Part shown: piece after piece, positions 19,402-31,191 of the stretch
Numbering within the stretch: the first letter of the stretch is position 1
How the letters are laid out: every line of letters starts with the position of its first letter
Assembly: GCA_030431615.1 (NCBI GenBank)
Contig: JAUIID010000034.1
Location: 1-32,306, forward strand
Length of the DNA stretch: 32,306 nt
Origin: Alphaproteobacteria bacterium
Lineage (GTDB): Bacteria > Pseudomonadota > Alphaproteobacteria > Geminicoccales > Geminicoccaceae
Direction: 5' to 3'
Program-made: the position numbers and the translations under genes
The notes under the pieces: model-generated
The model's database searches: none
What the model was told of the DNA's origin: nothing
Seen by the model: only the letters and a program-made list of their open reading frames with translations

Positions 19402-19518
19402 GGGTCGTCCCCGCTACTGGTCTTGCCCGGCTTGGCATGGCCCGGGCGATGATCGCCGATAGCAGACAAGGCACCCGGGCGGCAAGCGACACCCCGGCGC
19501 AGGAATGATGGGCGAGTG

Positions 19519-20367
19519 ATGCTGGAGGCTTTGCGCGGCTGGTGGCTGGACCGCAAGGATGCTCGCCTGGTGGCCGAGCGGGTGGCGCGCTTTGCGGCGG
19601 CGGAGGTGCTCTTCGTCTCCTTCACCAAGAGCGGGCGAACCTGGCTTCGGGTCCTCCTCTCGAACGTCTACGCCCGCCGCTTCGACCTCTCGGATCGCGA
19701 GCTGCTCAACGGCGACAATCTGCACCGCCTCGATCCACGTGTACCGCGGGTCCACTTCGCCCCCGACACCTGTCTGCCCTATCCGGAGCTCGGGCCGCCT
19801 CAGGTTCGGGCCAGCCCGGCGCAGAAGGTGGTCTTCCTTGTGCGCGATCCGCGCGACATTGCCGTCTCGCTCTACTTCCATGTCCTGCACCGTGCCGGCG
19901 AGCGCGAGCTCAGGCGCAAGAAGATCCCGCTGGCCGCCCGCGACACCGATCTCGACAGCTTCGTCCTCGACGAAAGCCACGGCGCGCCCAGGGTCATCCG
20001 CTACCTGAATCGCTGGGTGGCGGACGCGGCGACCCTGCCGGCGAGCCTGCGCATACGCTACGAGGACCTGCGTGCCGACACCCGGGGCGAGCTCGGCCGC
20101 CTCGTCCGCTTCGTCGACCTCGATGCCACGCCGGAGATGCTGGACGAGGCGGTCGCCTTCGCCGCCTTCAGGAACATGCAGGAGAAGGAGCGCGAGGGCT
20201 ATTTCAACTCGGACCGGCTGGGGCGGGCCAATCCTGATGATGTCGCGACCGGCAAGGTCCGCGAGGGCCGGGTCGGCGGCTATCGCGAGAGCCTCCGGCC
20301 AGCGACCGTGGAAGCGCTCGACCGGCTGGTCGAGACGCGCCTCGATCCGACCTACGGCTACCGCTGA
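19519..20367 (+). CDS. Sulfotransferase 1 (PAPS-dependent)
   Basis: Sulfotransferase-family protein of 282 residues that would move sulfate from PAPS to a hydroxyl group of a glycan or small molecule. The 5'-phosphosulfate loop is TKSGRTWL at 36-43; the 3'-phosphate-binding region is FLVRDPRDIAVSLYFH with R109 and S117. It is a close paralog of sulfotransferase 3: lengths are equal, motifs fall at identical residue numbers, and long stretches match (RAGERELRRKKIP, KEREGYFNSDRLG, GRVGGYR). The ATG at 19519 is chosen over the preceding GTG because the length then equals the paralog. The last 10 bp overlap the convergent sulfotransferase 2 gene. The acceptor is unknown. Confidence 0.85.
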   Translation: MLEALRGWWLDRKDARLVAERVARFAAAEVLFVSFTKSGRTWLRVLLSNVYARRFDLSDRELLNGDNLHRLDPRVPRVHFAPDTCLPYPELGPPQVRASPAQKVVFLVRDPRDIAVSLYFHVLHRAGERELRRKKIPLAARDTDLDSFVLDESHGAPRVIRYLNRWVADAATLPASLRIRYEDLRADTRGELGRLVRFVDLDATPEMLDEAVAFAAFRNMQEKEREGYFNSDRLGRANPDDVATGKVREGRVGGYRESLRPATVEALDRLVETRLDPTYGYR

Positions 20368-22584: not shown

Positions 22585-23433
22585 ATGCGGGCGCTGTTGC
22601 GCGACTGGTGGCTGACCTTCCGGGACCGCGGGCTGACCGCCGAGCGGGTCAGGAGCTTCGCCGCCGCCGACGTGCTCGTGGTCTCCTACACCAAGAGCGG
22701 CCGCACCTGGCTGCGCGTGCTGCTCTCGAACTACTACAGCCGGCGCTTCGGCTTCTCCGACAAGGAGCTGATCGACGGTGACAATCTTCACCGTCAACAG
22801 GCTGAAATTCCAAGGATCTTCTTCGCGCCCGATACGCGGTTCCCCTACCCGGAGCTGGGCGCGCCCAAGGTCCATGCCGCACCGCACCAGAAGATCGTCT
22901 TCCTGGTGCGCGACCCGCGCGACGTTGCCGTCTCGCTCTATTTCCACGTCAGGAACCGGGCCGGCGAGCGGGAACTGCGCCGCAAGAAGATCCCGCAATC
23001 CGCCCGCGAACTCGATATCGACAGCTTCGTGCTCGATCCCTCGTTCGGCGCCGTCCGGATGATCGGCTACCTCAATCGCTGGGCCGAGGAGCGGCACACG
23101 CTCCGCCAGGCCCGTCTCCTGCGCTACGAGGACCTGCGCGCCGACACCGAGGCCGCCTTCACCGACCTCCTCGCCTTCATCGGCGAGACCGTCGATCCCG
23201 TCCAGGTCGCCGAGACCGTCCGTTTCGCCTCCTTCCAGAGCCTGCAGCAGAAGGAGCGCGAGGGATACTTCAACTCCGACCGCCTCGGCCAGAGGCGCGC
23301 CGGCGACGTCGAGACCGCGAAGGTGCGCAAGGGCCGCGTCGGCGGCTATCGCGCCGCGCTCAGGCCGGAGACAGCCGAACGGCTGGACCGGCTGGTCAGG
23401 GAGCGCCTCGATCCCGGCTTCGGCTACCACTGA
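22585..23433 (+). CDS. Sulfotransferase 3 (PAPS-dependent), paralog of sulfotransferase 1
   Basis: Sulfotransferase of 282 residues. PAPS loop TKSGRTWL is at 36-43 and FLVRDPRDVAVSLYFH begins near 106 with R109, the same numbering as sulfotransferase 1, with well over half of all residues shared. The C-terminal KEREGYFNSDRLG, GRVGGYR and DPGFGYH are shared as well. Both paralogs keep all recognisable cofactor motifs, so both may be active on different positions or acceptors. It follows the methyltransferase gene by 12 bp. The region after its stop holds the leader of the guanidinium exporter, which is likely transcribed separately or by read-through. Confidence 0.87.
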   Translation: MRALLRDWWLTFRDRGLTAERVRSFAAADVLVVSYTKSGRTWLRVLLSNYYSRRFGFSDKELIDGDNLHRQQAEIPRIFFAPDTRFPYPELGAPKVHAAPHQKIVFLVRDPRDVAVSLYFHVRNRAGERELRRKKIPQSARELDIDSFVLDPSFGAVRMIGYLNRWAEERHTLRQARLLRYEDLRADTEAAFTDLLAFIGETVDPVQVAETVRFASFQSLQQKEREGYFNSDRLGQRRAGDVETAKVRKGRVGGYRAALRPETAERLDRLVRERLDPGFGYH

Positions 23434-23484
23434 GCGCCACCCGGCCGCCGCTTGACCCGCCGGCTCCAGGCACCCAGATAGGGC

Positions 23485-23536
23485 GGGCGAGGCCACGACC
23501 TCCCCCATCATGGGCAGCAAATCCGGGACGGCCCGG
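23485..23536 (+). promoter_or_regulatory. Guanidine-II (mini-ykkC) riboswitch candidate
   Basis: Two hairpins stand just before the exporter gene. The second is a textbook element: stem CCGGG/CCCGG (23523-23527, 23532-23536) closing the tetraloop ACGG. The first pairs GGG-c-GAGG with CCTC-c-CCC (23485-23492, 23499-23506) around CCACGA, which contains ACGA but in a six-base loop with one C-C mismatch in the stem. Guanidine-II RNAs consist of two hairpins with ACGR loops. CCTCC at 23499-23503, in the first hairpin's 3' arm, is complementary to the ribosome-binding site GGAGG at 23544-23548, so guanidinium binding could free the site. The gene controlled is exactly the expected type. Confidence 0.72.
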
Positions 23537-23558
23537 TCCTTCAGGAGGAGGGCCGCTC

Positions 23559-23879
23559 GTGCCCTGGATCATGTTGTTCATCGCCGGCCTGCTCGAGGTC
23601 GTCTGGGCCTACTTCATGAAGCAGTCGGAAGGCTTCAGCCGGCTCGGGCCCACCATCATCACCCTCGTCGCCATGCTCGGCAGCTTCGGCCTTCTGGCGC
23701 TCGCCATGCGCGCCCTGCCGCTCGGCACCGCCTACATGATCTGGACCGGCATCGGTGCCGTCGGCGCATTCATCGTAGGCATCATCGTCCTGGGCGAGCA
23801 GGTGACAGTGATGCGCCTCATCGCCGCCGCGATGATCACCGGCGGCCTCGTGCTCATGAAGCTGGCCTCGGACGCCTGA
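23559..23879 (+). CDS. gdx: Guanidinium exporter, small multidrug resistance family (Gdx/SugE)
   Basis: Inner-membrane, proton-coupled guanidinium exporter of 106 residues with four helices, working as a dual-topology dimer. The Gdx branch signature is clear: MPWIMLFIAGLLEVVWA with the essential E13 and W16, GFSRL, LPLGTAYMIWTGIGAVGAF, and LGEQVTVMRL, all close to the E. coli SugE pattern rather than EmrE. Start is GTG with a strong AGGAGG site (23543-23548) 10 bases upstream. The leader carries a guanidine-II riboswitch candidate, supporting the substrate. It has no obvious tie to the surrounding sulfotransferase genes and is convergent with the secreted-protein gene. Confidence 0.93.
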   Translation: MPWIMLFIAGLLEVVWAYFMKQSEGFSRLGPTIITLVAMLGSFGLLALAMRALPLGTAYMIWTGIGAVGAFIVGIIVLGEQVTVMRLIAAAMITGGLVLMKLASDA

Positions 23880-26592: not shown

Positions 26593-28296
26593 TCAAGCCA
26601 TGGCCCGCGCTACCTCTCTGGTCCTGACACCGGTCGGCCCGACCTCGTAGACCCGGTCGGCCAGCTTCACCCAGATCGGCCGATGGGTGATGGCGACGAT
26701 GGAGACCCGACCTCTCAGCTGGCGCACATTGGCGCAGATCGCGGCCTCCGTCTCGGGATCGAGCGCACTCGTCACCTCGTCGAGGATCAAGAGCTTGGGC
26801 TTGACCACGAGTGCCCGGGCGAGGGCGATACGCTGGCGCTGGCCGCCGGAGAGCATCGTGCCGCGCTCGCCGACCACCTGCTCGATGCCGTTCGGCAGGG
26901 CGGCGACGAACTCCCAGGCGCCGGCGAGGCGCAGCGCCTCCTCGGCCGCCGCCGCGTCGAAGGCGGGATCGCCCAGGGTCACGTTGGCCAGCACGCTGTC
27001 GTGGAAAAGGGCCAGTTCCTGCGGGACGTAGCCGAGCATGGACCGCCAGGCGATGACATCCAGCTCGTCGAGCGGCACGCCATCGACCCGCACCGTCCCG
27101 CTCTGCGGCGTGAGCAGGCCAAGGAGAAGGTCGGTGATGGTGGTCTTGCCGACGCCGGACGGACCGGTGATGACGGTGAGCCGGCCCGCCGGGATGGTCA
27201 GGCTGGCATTCTTGATGACCGGCTTCTCGCCATAACCGAAGGTCACCTTGTCAAGCGAGCAGCCCTCGTTGAAGGTCGGCTGGCGGGTGCCGGTGAACTG
27301 CTCGCTCTCGGCCTCGGCTTCGGCCACCAGTTGGTGCACCGACCAGTAGGAAGCCTGCAGGATCTGGGCGCGCTGCTCCAGCTCCTGCACCTTGCCGAGC
27401 GTGCTGATGATCCGGGCGAGAAGCACGCCCATGACCAGGAGCTCGGGCAGGGCGATGACCTCGCTCGTATAGACGAAGAAGAAGGCACCGGCCGCCGCCA
27501 GGGCGACGATCGGCTCCCGCAGGCTCTTCATCAGGTGCCGGCTCATCGCCTCCTGCTGCAGGGCAACGCGCAGCTTGCCGGTGCGTCTCGAGAAGAACTC
27601 GGCGAACTGCGCCTGCCGCGACATCGCCTTCAGGGGCTTGATGTTCGAGAGCGTGTCCGAGAGGAGCGTGACGATATCCTCGGTGCGCTGGCGCTGCTTG
27701 ATGCCCGCACGCTTCGCCATTTTCACCAGCGGCAGGAGGATGACGGCGATGAGCGCACCCACCAGCAGCCCGATCAGGGCCACCTTCCAGGAGACGAGCA
27801 GCGCCACCACGAGCGTAATCGCCGCCTGGAAGACGGTCGCCAGATAGGTCGTGGCGACCAGATAGGCGTCGCCGGCGCGGGTCGAATCGAGGCTCACCGA
27901 GTTCGCCAGCCGGCCGACCGGGTGGCGGGTGAAGTAGGGCCAGCGGACGTTGAGCAGCGCCGTGACCAGCGCGATCCGCACGCGGGAGGCGACGGTGGCG
28001 ACCACGGCGCTCACATGGTACATCGCGAGGATCACCATAAGTGCCTTCACCAGCATGCCGATGACGATGACCGCGAGCAGCATCGGCAGGCTGGCGGGCA
28101 GGCCGAGCCAGGCAAGCCCGTCCGTGACGGCCTGGCCGATGCCGGTCGTGTCGTTCTCGCCGAAGGCGAGCGTCACGGCGGGCAGCATGCTGGCGAGGCC
28201 GATGCCCTCGGCCATGGTGGCGAGGATGAGCGCCGCCAGTACGGTCCATTTGACCATGCCCGAGGAGCTCATGAAGATGCGAAAGACGTCGCGCAT
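26593..28296 (-). CDS. ABC half-exporter 1 (membrane domain plus ATPase)
   Basis: Type IV-fold ABC exporter half-transporter, 567 residues, working as a dimer in the inner membrane. Six helices (about 15-310) precede the nucleotide-binding domain. Walker A GPSGVGKT 378-385, Q426, signature LSGGQ 482-486, Walker B LLILDE 502-507 with the catalytic glutamate, D-loop SALD, and switch H538 (ITHRP). All sites are intact. Motif positions agree residue by residue with ABC 2, so the two are gene duplicates and may form homodimers or a heterodimer. MsbA-like flippases and exporters of glycolipids or sulfated products share this architecture. The ATG at 28296 lies 22 bp after the duplicated leader element at 28319-28394. 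Confidence 0.9.
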   Translation of the reverse strand: MRDVFRIFMSSSGMVKWTVLAALILATMAEGIGLASMLPAVTLAFGENDTTGIGQAVTDGLAWLGLPASLPMLLAVIVIGMLVKALMVILAMYHVSAVVATVASRVRIALVTALLNVRWPYFTRHPVGRLANSVSLDSTRAGDAYLVATTYLATVFQAAITLVVALLVSWKVALIGLLVGALIAVILLPLVKMAKRAGIKQRQRTEDIVTLLSDTLSNIKPLKAMSRQAQFAEFFSRRTGKLRVALQQEAMSRHLMKSLREPIVALAAAGAFFFVYTSEVIALPELLVMGVLLARIISTLGKVQELEQRAQILQASYWSVHQLVAEAEAESEQFTGTRQPTFNEGCSLDKVTFGYGEKPVIKNASLTIPAGRLTVITGPSGVGKTTITDLLLGLLTPQSGTVRVDGVPLDELDVIAWRSMLGYVPQELALFHDSVLANVTLGDPAFDAAAAEEALRLAGAWEFVAALPNGIEQVVGERGTMLSGGQRQRIALARALVVKPKLLILDEVTSALDPETEAAICANVRQLRGRVSIVAITHRPIWVKLADRVYEVGPTGVRTREVARAMA

Positions 28297-28318: not shown

Positions 28319-28394
28319 GGCGCGCAGATGCGTGACGCGCGTTCTAGGCGATGTGGCCACCCCGTGCCAATTTCGCCATGCGGCGCAATTGCCT
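28319..28394 (-). repeat. Duplicated leader element, copy upstream of ABC 1
   Basis: The 24 bp at 28371-28394 match 31409-31432 at 23 positions, with the core TTTCGCCATGCGGCGCAAT identical. Similarity continues for about 50 bp more toward each ABC start (shared CCACAT, GCGCG, GCATC, GCGCC blocks). The end of this copy overlaps the sulfotransferase 4 stop codon. Each copy lies upstream of one of the two paralogous ABC genes. Confidence 0.65.
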
Positions 28395-29395
28395 TATCCG
28401 CAGTCGTACCCGAGTTGCGCCAGCGGCAGGCCGGTAAGTTGCGCCAGGCGTTGATTGCTCTCGGCGTAGCTGCCTTCGACCGTTGCCGCGATCTGGCGCT
28501 GCCAGCGCCGGCGAACGCGACGGCTGAGCGGGTCGAACAATCGGCCCTGCAAGCGCGCGCAGAAATTGTCGATCAGGCGCCTGCCGAAATTCGTCGCAAG
28601 GGGGCTGAGGCCGTTCAGGGGATCGGCGCGGCGCAGGTAGTTGAGGTGACGCATCACCACCAGTGCCACGGCATCGCGCGACGCGTTCAGCACCTCCTTG
28701 CCCGGCTCGGCGATCTCGCCTTCGATCCCGAGGAAACGACGCAGCTCCGCGAGCAAGCGGACCGGATCGTTCACGATCCACTCGTAGGGCAGCACCTGGA
28801 CATGGTCCGCGCCGAACAGGCCTTGATAGTGCGCGACCAGTCGATCGTACTTGAACTGCCGCAGGTTGAAGAATGGCATCCGCATGCTGCGTGAGCCCGC
28901 CAGGAAGGCGTCGAGCCGAAGCAGTCCGCCCTTCTTCACGTACTGGCCATAGGCGGAGAGGATGATCGAGCGCTGCTCCCGCACGACGAGCAGAATGCGG
29001 GCGTCGGGGAAGAGCCCATGCAGCAACTCGGCATTCCACGCGCTGTTGTGCCCGCCAGAGAAGAGACTGCCCGAAAGGCTCTCGCCCGACAGTGCCACCC
29101 AGGCATCCGCCGGCAGGTCCGGCTGCAGGCGTGCGAGGTAGGCTTCGCGAGGGCCTGCGAGGTCCGGCGCCAACGGATCGACGTGGTTCAGCGCGTGCGC
29201 ACCTTGCTCCGAACCGTCCTGGCCCCAGGGCAGTATGCCGTAGCGGCCACTGTCGAAGACCACCCGTTGCAGCCAGGTGCTGCCGGTCTTCGGATAGCCG
29301 ATATGGATGAGCAGTTGTCGGGGTATCGATCCCGCCATTGCACCGACCGTTTCGGCGGGAGAACAGTCCGGTGCGGGCGAGCTGGACGCAGTCAC
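28394..29395 (-). CDS. Sulfotransferase 4
   Basis: Sulfotransferase of 333 residues from GTG 29395, whose start overlaps the stop of ABC transporter 2 as GTGA (29392-29395), so translation is probably coupled. The PAPS loop is YPKTGSTWLQ at 34-43, complete and canonical; the 3'-phosphate region reads ILLVVREQRSIILSAYGQYVKKGG. DHVQVLPYEWIVNDP matches the corresponding block of sulfotransferase 2, so both belong to the same branch. An ATG at 29338 would give a shorter protein (MAGSIPRQLL) and is the alternative start. The tight link with an exporter gene is the best local evidence that a sulfated product is exported. Confidence 0.82.
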   Translation of the reverse strand: MTASSSPAPDCSPAETVGAMAGSIPRQLLIHIGYPKTGSTWLQRVVFDSGRYGILPWGQDGSEQGAHALNHVDPLAPDLAGPREAYLARLQPDLPADAWVALSGESLSGSLFSGGHNSAWNAELLHGLFPDARILLVVREQRSIILSAYGQYVKKGGLLRLDAFLAGSRSMRMPFFNLRQFKYDRLVAHYQGLFGADHVQVLPYEWIVNDPVRLLAELRRFLGIEGEIAEPGKEVLNASRDAVALVVMRHLNYLRRADPLNGLSPLATNFGRRLIDNFCARLQGRLFDPLSRRVRRRWQRQIAATVEGSYAESNQRLAQLTGLPLAQLGYDCG

Positions 29396-31191
29396 AATGC
29401 TGGCGCGATGGAGGCTCGGGAAGAACCGCCACCCGATTCCGGCTTGTCACCCGGGTTGGGCCTGGATCCATCGGCGGCGAAATCACCACCGTCAGCGTGC
29501 GCCATGTCCGACGTCTCGACGATGCGGCCGGACTCGATCCTGATCAGCTGGTCGGCGATGTCGAGGAACTCGCCGCGATGCGTTATCACGATGATCGTCA
29601 CCAATCCCTTCAGTCGCTCGACTTCGGCCTGGATCGCCTGCGCCGTCGCCCTGTCCAGGGCACTAGTCGCTTCATCGAAGATCAAAAGATCGGGCCGGCG
29701 GGCGAGCGCTCGCGCCAGAGCGATACGCTGTCGCTGTCCGCCAGAGAGCTTGGCGCCGCCTGAACCGACCTCGGTGGCGATGCCCTTCGGCAGGGAAGCA
29801 ACGAACTCGGCAGCACCCGCCAGCTCCAGCGCCCGTGTAACGTCCTCCTCGGTGATCGACGGATCACCGAAGGTGACGTTGTTGTAGATGGTGTCATGCA
29901 GGAGCATGAGTTCCTGGGCGACATAACCCACCCGATTGCGCCAGGCGCTGATGTCGAGATCCCCAAGCTCGACGCCGTCGATCGTGATCGAGCCGGAAGA
30001 GGGCTCGTACAGACGCAGGGTCAGATCGATGATGCTGGTCTTGCCGGCACCCGATGGACCGACGATGACCGTCAGGTCCTTTGCCTTGATCTTGAACGAC
30101 ACGTCCTGCAACGCCTGAACATCACCATGCAGCAGCGACACGTGATCGAACCGGATTCCGTCACTCAGCTCCGCCTGCTTGCCGCCGGTCCGCTCTTCCG
30201 CGGCCAGATTGAGATCCTCCAGCAAACGGCCGGTGACGATGTAGGCGCTCTCGAGCATGGCCACACGCTGATAGGTCTTCTGGAGCTTGCCGATGTTGTT
30301 CGCGGTCCGCGCCAGAGCCACTGCCATGATGGCCAGCGTCTCGAAGCCGACGTCCATGAAGGCGGGTGCGGCAAGGATGATCGCCGCGAATCCGATCGCG
30401 ATGAGGATCTCGTTCAGGCCGGTCAGCCCTTCGCGATACAGGATCTGGCGGCGCATCGCCCGCCGCACCTTCTCCACCTGCGCCCGCAGGACCTGCTCGT
30501 ACGCAGTCTCGCGACCCATCGCCCTGAGCGGCTTCAGATTGTGGAGAGCGTCCGTGAGCTCGCTGATCAATGCTCTTCTGGTAAAGGTCTCGCGCTTGCC
30601 AGCCTTCTTGGCCAGCGGGACGAGAAAGCCCAGTGCAGCCGCTACGACCAGCCCCAGGGCAACACCGGCGATCGCCAGTTTCCAGGACAGATAGAGGGCG
30701 ACCAGAAGATTGATTGCCGTCTGGGCCACAAGGGCAATGAACGTCGTGCTCGTCAGATAGGCGTCGGCCGCCCGGTTGGACTCGCCGGACACGATGAAAG
30801 GGAACTGCCCCTTGGCGCTGTCGATGATGTATTGCCAGCGAGCCCGCATGATGCCGGAAATCACCCGCCGGCGGATGACGGTTGCGACTTCTGCGGCAGT
30901 GTTGCTGATGAACTGGGTGGCCAGGAACGTTATCGATGCCTTCAGGATCATCATGATGATGAAGACACCGATGAGCGAATGCAGGTTGGGCTGAATGCCG
31001 AACTCTGCCAGCTTGTCGAGAATGACCTTCGACGTGCCCGAGGGATCCGAATCGCCACCGACGATCGCGATCACCGGCAGAAGTGTAACGAGTCCGATAC
31101 CTTCCGTCAGGCTCGCCAGAAAGAAGGCGAGCACGACCAGCCATGGTCGCCCGCCCGGCGCCGAATTGAAGATCCTGAAGAGCGTCCGCAT
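29392..31191 (-). CDS. ABC half-exporter 2, paralog of ABC 1
   Basis: ABC exporter half-transporter of 599 residues. It aligns with ABC 1 with no net gap over about 520 residues: both start with MR-x-x-FRIF, both keep SWK at 169-171, and Walker A GPSGAGKT (378-385), Q426, LSGGQ (482-486), LLIFDE (502-507) and SALD fall at identical positions. The TEGIGL motif at the end of helix 1 is also shared. It has a 30-residue disordered, glycine/serine-rich C-terminal tail that ABC 1 lacks. The glutamate of Walker B is present in both, so neither ATP site is degenerate. Gene order is ABC 2 - sulfotransferase 4 - ABC 1, all on the minus strand. Confidence 0.9.
   Translation of the reverse strand: MRTLFRIFNSAPGGRPWLVVLAFFLASLTEGIGLVTLLPVIAIVGGDSDPSGTSKVILDKLAEFGIQPNLHSLIGVFIIMMILKASITFLATQFISNTAAEVATVIRRRVISGIMRARWQYIIDSAKGQFPFIVSGESNRAADAYLTSTTFIALVAQTAINLLVALYLSWKLAIAGVALGLVVAAALGFLVPLAKKAGKRETFTRRALISELTDALHNLKPLRAMGRETAYEQVLRAQVEKVRRAMRRQILYREGLTGLNEILIAIGFAAIILAAPAFMDVGFETLAIMAVALARTANNIGKLQKTYQRVAMLESAYIVTGRLLEDLNLAAEERTGGKQAELSDGIRFDHVSLLHGDVQALQDVSFKIKAKDLTVIVGPSGAGKTSIIDLTLRLYEPSSGSITIDGVELGDLDISAWRNRVGYVAQELMLLHDTIYNNVTFGDPSITEEDVTRALELAGAAEFVASLPKGIATEVGSGGAKLSGGQRQRIALARALARRPDLLIFDEATSALDRATAQAIQAEVERLKGLVTIIVITHRGEFLDIADQLIRIESGRIVETSDMAHADGGDFAADGSRPNPGDKPESGGGSSRASIAPAL

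Follow-up and report, generated by a model that had tools for sequence, protein, structure and literature searches.

A predicted guanidine-II-type leader with a six-base P1 loop upstream of a Gdx-type exporter gene in an alphaproteobacterium

We present here a leader upstream of a Gdx-type SMR exporter gene that, judging from sequence comparison and folding models, is probably a translational ON switch for guanidinium of the guanidine-II type. It belongs to a conserved subclass with a six-base loop in the first hairpin (P1), in which P1 probably acts as a kissing partner and the second hairpin (P2) would hold the ligand, probably a single guanidinium. Guanidine-II riboswitches are tiny RNAs with two equal hairpins that cooperatively bind two guanidinium ions via a loop-loop contact. 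The leader lies in a 32,306-nucleotide stretch of DNA from a member of the Geminicoccaceae (contig JAUIID010000034.1, positions 1 to 32,306; here called the window), and all positions without a locus number refer to this stretch.

All features of the leader are on the forward strand. P1 spans 23485 to 23506, as determined from the sequence, the alignment to Rfam family RF01068, and folding. Its inner part (23489 to 23502) reads GAGG-CCACGA-CCTC, with the 5′ arm at 23489 to 23492 and the 3′ arm at 23499 to 23502; a C23488-C23503 mismatch flanks this inner stem, and GGG/CCC pairs are possible beyond the mismatch. Relative to the known ACGR loop, the P1 loop CCACGA (23493 to 23498) has two extra C residues between the closing G and ACG, and its last base is A, where U or C is the norm in the class (consensus CCACGU/C by sequence comparison). 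A preliminary description of this DNA had likewise read P1 as ACGA within a six-base loop beside a mismatch, a reading that stands; P1 is not an ACGR tetraloop hairpin. A linker hairpin, CCCA-TCA-TGGG (23504 to 23514), was identified by folding and permutations and is weak in the window and stronger in relatives. It is followed by AAAT (23519 to 23522; class consensus AAGU) immediately 5′ of P2. P2 (23523 to 23536; sequence and RF01068 alignment) is CCGGG-ACGG-CCCGG, and its GC stem and ACGR tetraloop make it the canonical guanidine-II hairpin that had been proposed. A third hairpin, P3 (GGTCCTTC-AGGA-GGAGGGCC; 23535 to 23554), was identified by folding and arm covariation and contains the ribosome-binding site AGGAGGAGG (23543 to 23551), with GTG 7 to 10 bases downstream. 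The exporter gene (23559 to 23879; 106 amino acids; GTG start), called from its open reading frame and from profile and structure matches, begins 23 bases downstream of P2.

A putative promoter (23452 to 23480), picked out by eye, consists of TTGACC (23452 to 23457), a 17-base spacer, and CAGATA (23475 to 23480) and would have transcription begin roughly at the 5′ end of P1; a sigma-70 consensus scan made no promoter call at the window leader. Five relatives (L055, L080, L090, L120, and L121) carry TTGAC-N17/18-TAGATA about 40 to 47 bases upstream of the P1 inner stem, and from these promoter-like sites, too, transcription would begin close to the 5′ end of P1.

The exporter protein matches PF00893 (SMR) with 96 bits, and its closest solved structures include Gdx-Clo (PDB 6wk5; E value, 1.2e-26). 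The full Gdx residue set (E13, W16, S42, Y59, and W62) is present. All five residues are alike in the window protein and in Gdx (SugE) exporters including Gdx-Clo, with no notable difference, and the SugE model NF008512 gives 121.2 bits (cutoff, 126). W16 is conserved in Gdx guanidinium exporters, and G or A stands in its place in the Qac multidrug subtype (PMC7695847). By its sequence, then, the exporter belongs to the Gdx subtype, in agreement with the preliminary description, and guanidinium export is predicted. The genome encodes one further SMR protein, which starts MVYLQLVVAIACEVAGTT and has a Qac-type glycine replacing W16; the leader of its gene contains no comparable hairpin pair. Elsewhere in the window are sulfotransferase-like genes at 19516 to 20367, 22585 to 23433, and 28394 to 29395 (PF00685 confirmed for 22585 to 23433, the others assigned by eye) and ABC-transporter-like genes at 26593 to 28296 and 29392 to 31191, which may form a sulfated-polysaccharide cluster with the Gdx gene set inside it.

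Relatives of the leader were sampled from 80 loci encoding close relatives of the exporter and from loci in whole genomes. A six-base P1 loop was found in 48 leaders upstream of Gdx homologues, the window included, as CCACGT (38 leaders), CCACGC (6), CAACGT (2), CGACGT (1), and CCACGA (1, the window). The class arrangement is GAGG-CCACGY-CCTC, a linker hairpin, and then P2 with ACGG. The usual four-base ACGR loop of P1 is present in 34 leaders, a few borderline ones, such as L111 from Asaia, being assigned by hand. The P2 loop is ACGG in 46 of the 48 six-base leaders and ACGA in L035 and L104; the four-base group has ACGA in 24 leaders and ACGG in 10. Hosts of the six-base group are Sphingomonadales, Caulobacterales (Caulobacteraceae), some Rhizobiales, Methylobacteriaceae, Acetobacteraceae, Roseobacteraceae, and one betaproteobacterium (Pigmentiphaga). 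In the protein tree, six-base and four-base members are partly intermixed, and the window groups with two six-base Phenylobacterium members. On this comparison, which the preliminary description had proposed, the six-base P1 is a conserved subclass, with about 66 leaders found here. The term "unusual variant" given to P1 in that description holds against the guanidine-II consensus and not in the sense of an oddity confined to the window.

Several leaders of close homologues fall outside these two groups or between them. The P1 loops of L109 and L111 (both Asaia), AGACGACGT and GCGACGACGC, are intermediate between the four-base and six-base types. The 130 bases upstream of nine close Gdx homologues (L043, L045, L069, L070, L081, L089, L094, L107, and L113) contain no recognizable guanidine-II hairpin. 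The Gdx leader of a Rhodospirillales metagenome-assembled genome (L063; 130 bases upstream of position 1501) reads GAGG-CAAGGT-CCTC plus CCGG-GATGTT-CCGG, with both loops altered, and would be either another divergent form or a product of decay. Locus L030, a relative from the window's family, has an Alphaproteobacterial SAM riboswitch (RF00521; positions 237 to 315; 73.4 bits) some 1.1 kb before its guanidine leader.

The default Rfam scan of the window, a check put forward in the preliminary description, is silent on the leader because RF01068 scores it at 27.3 bits, below the gathering score of 32. At a lax threshold, the match covers 23485 to 23536 on the forward strand (E value, 7e-4 on 241 bases) and is the top RF01068 match of the whole 5.3-Mb genome (E value, 0.0038). 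No match to guanidine-I, -III, or -IV was found in the window by Rfam scans. The 27.3-bit score alone proves little, because similar scores occur away from SMR genes: RF01068 matches of 22 to 29 bits in other genomes of the window's family mostly fall within coding sequence or have no SMR gene nearby and were set aside as chance, and those of 24 to 29 bits at L002 and L010 to L013 adjoin no SMR gene and resemble chance ACGR hairpins. The RF01068 cutoff was reached by 17 of 20 four-base-loop leaders and by none of the 20 six-base leaders tested, the best of which scored 28.2 bits; most were unlisted even at an E value of 5.

A covariance model of the class was trained on 38 six-base leaders from other species and not on the window leader itself. 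On the window's genome it gave the leader 51.6 bits (E value, 1.6e-6) and the runner-up place 21.2 bits; E values from this model are rough by construction, and the reliable measure is the gap in bit score. Other six-base leaders scored 36 to 67 bits and four-base leaders 18 to 36 bits, with the Asaia leaders at 48.3 (L109, in the training set) and 46.5 (L111, not in the set). The identification of the window leader is firm because a model built without it finds it, and the assignment first made from the sequence, a guanidine-II type before a Gdx exporter, is borne out by this score together with the best genome match of RF01068.

Searches by DNA pattern or class model, with no gene criterion, were also made. 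They returned 11 motif-bearing places in the class and phylum samples, 17 places (15 of them new) in 119 genomes of a Sphingomonad-like family (f13; family inferred from the sequences), and 6 places (3 new) in another family (f64; 70 genomes; taken as Caulobacteraceae from the sequences). An SMR gene lies directly downstream at 29 of the 29 distinct places with the full motif. The sixth base of the P1 loop, a position left free in the search, is U in 17 of the 17 places in f13. Pattern matches at L116, L117, L122, and L129 to L133 had no adjoining SMR match and lacked the full motif and were discarded as chance.

The five pairs of the P2 stem are identical in all 42 aligned relatives, its closing G-C pair is invariant in 48 of 48, and ACG is invariant in the loops of both P1 and P2. 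Being without variation, P2 gives no evidence of covariation, but it is under strong constraint. The P1 stem shows compensatory changes in relatives, A-U/G-C at one inner pair and G-C/A-U at the closing pair. The closing pair is A-U in 4 of the 48 six-base leaders and in 6 of 15 further leaders, and an A-U closing pair was found in no P2 and in none of 30 four-base P1 hairpins. In the six-base group, linker halves match their native partners better than partners swapped in from other species (0 of 5,000 permutations), which does not hold for the four-base group (409 of 3,000); significance is overstated here and in the P3 test below because the permutations ignore relatedness. The six-base class mostly retains AAGU just 5′ of P2 (23519 to 23522 in the window), at four positions that vary in the four-base class and for which no role was found. 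These patterns bear on the idea that P1 is a decayed relic and that only the ribosome-binding-site hairpin matters. A score under the Rfam cutoff and a window loop off the class consensus would suit a relic, but the conservation of CCACGY across families, the compensatory changes in P1, and the unvarying P2 stem make it very improbable.

In the crystal structure of a guanidine-II riboswitch, C8 of each loop pairs with G9 of the partner loop. The guanidine is bonded to G9 and to the phosphates of A7 and C8 and lies stacked on the closing-pair base G6; base 10 flips out, and one side of the pocket is open (PMC5486947). By comparison with that structure, P2 of the six-base class retains all pocket features. 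P1 departs from it in that the G directly before A is gone, the tight turn is gone, and the last-loop purine is usually gone. The ACG that P1 keeps would let it serve as a kissing partner; with CC inserted, position 10 usually occupied by a pyrimidine, and the closing pair variable, a change or loss of the P1 pocket is probable. The lack of three pocket features suggests that each RNA probably binds one guanidinium and not two. A study of vertebrate guanidine aptamers made a similar suggestion, that an odd hairpin might join a consensus hairpin into a single pocket (PMC12335538). An extended pairing of P1 CC..GU with the P2 ACGG loop, attractive in view of ACGG in 46 of the 48 P2 loops, was considered and is not claimed; L035 and L104, with ACGA, are uncompensated, and the CAACGT members break the pairing.

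The main rival to single-site binding is that the extra CC is bulged out and merely caps the open side of the pocket, so that the ACG pocket of P1 stays intact and two guanidinium ions bind cooperatively. This would explain the invariant ACG of P1 and agrees with the RF01068 alignment, which takes CC as a plain insertion with ACGA in register, and with the open side of the published pocket (PMC5486947). A merely bulged CC fits poorly with its conservation, however, and the change from G-C to A-U at the closing pair is confined to P1 of the six-base class, and the P1 loop of nearly all members ends in U or C, so that we regard binding of two ions as rather unlikely. Mutation of one hairpin impairs the function of canonical guanidine-II RNA (PMC9481103; PMC5486947), which counts against a functional single-site form unless P1 has adapted. 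We tentatively suggest, as a possibility that falls somewhat short of an even chance, that the class is a widespread guanidine-II subclass in which the P1 pocket has been given up, CCACGY is a docking loop only, the linker hairpin helps, and sensing is single site and noncooperative.

A change of ligand, with the subclass sensing another guanidino compound or another SMR substrate, would account for a conserved loop that departs from the consensus. It would also gain if the class were one of the GGAM-2 to -6 motifs, which occur before sugE genes and for which preliminary tests reportedly showed no guanidine binding (PMC7736828). Such a change is quite improbable in our view, given an intact, invariant P2 pocket and an exporter with the Gdx residue set.

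P3, which would close the ribosome-binding site, folds at −13.1 kcal/mol in the window and is predicted in nearly all class members (e.g., GGCTCTC/GAGAGCC, GGCAGCC/GGCTGCC, and GGCCCTTT/AAGGAGGGCC), and arms from the same leader match each other better than arms swapped between leaders (0 of 2,000 permutations). Because P3 starts on the GG that ends P2, the full P3 and P2 are mutually exclusive. In the predicted ligand-free ensemble of the window, P1 is folded (1.00) and P2 is not, and the ribosome-binding site pairs with a probability of 0.83 to the P3 arm and of 0.00 to CCTCC; the medians for 48 relatives are 0.64 and 0.00, respectively. The preliminary description had instead taken CCTCC (23499 to 23503), in the 3′ arm of P1, as an anti-ribosome-binding site that is released when guanidinium folds P1. 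CCTCC is exactly complementary to GGAGG in the ribosome-binding site, as stated there, it is the predicted partner of that site in about one-quarter of relatives (e.g., L062, L109, L125, L126, and L128), where it may act in this way, and published models place an anti-SD sequence in the linker (PMC9094411). The absence of predicted CCTCC pairing in the window and in the class median, the folding of P1 without ligand, and the covariation of P3, which points to P3 as the closing element, tell against this switch, and any P1 of the window sequence must contain CCTCC anyway. We consider it improbable and favor closure by P3.

When P1 and P2 are forced in the window, modeled openness rises from 0.07 to 0.34 at the ribosome-binding site and from 0.10 to 0.41 at the start codon, in keeping with an ON switch in which P2 and P3 compete. 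The predicted cost of holding both hairpins is 6.6 kcal/mol in the window (median, 7.5), and the class-wide opening of the ribosome-binding site is slight (median, 0.14 to 0.22), so that switching would have to be kinetic, while the RNA is transcribed, or depend on contacts missing from the model. The P2 5′ arm can also pair with codons 2 to 4 (UCCGGG/CCUGGA); this long-range pairing reaches 0.8 to 0.97 in some relatives, with a median of 0.04 and a value of 0.25 in the window, and was rejected as a class feature. In the mechanism that we propose, P3 and further pairing of the P2 arms would shut the ribosome-binding site when guanidinium is absent. When it is present, the ACG of P1 and the ACG of P2 would pair loop to loop, with the ligand in the P2 pocket and the P1 ACG sufficing as a kissing partner; P2 would stay folded during transcription, P3 would weaken, and the ribosome would load.

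The riboswitch type is known, and the six-base subclass is apparently undescribed, no account of a six-base P1 loop in guanidine-II having been found in the literature readable here. A subclass with unequal hairpins would provide a direct test of whether two pockets are needed in guanidine-II. The standard Rfam model overlooks many predicted guanidine switches in Sphingomonadales and Caulobacterales, and a second model, or a lower cutoff beside Gdx genes, would be a simple database fix.

Among known systems, the guanidine-I, -III, and -IV riboswitches also control Gdx genes, and their folds differ from that of the window leader. GGAM-5 has 328 examples in Alpha- and Betaproteobacteria, with sugE as the commonest downstream gene, and preliminary tests of it reportedly showed no guanidine binding (Lenkeit et al. 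2020, PMC7736828). As described there, it resembles the six-base class in being a conserved RNA, in its hosts, and in its commonest gene. It precedes varied genes, whereas the gene-blind matches of the six-base class precede SMR genes only; because of this variety, GGAM-5 is probably different, the comparison covering its hosts and downstream genes. With guanidine-II (mini-ykkC; RF01068), the class shares two GC-rich hairpins with ACG in both loops, a canonical P2, a short linker, an SMR exporter gene, and a translational context. It differs in having CCACG(U/C/A) instead of ACGR as the P1 loop, a P1 closing pair that can be A-U, a covarying hairpin as the linker, a P2 loop that is almost always ACGG, and a score below the Rfam cutoff.
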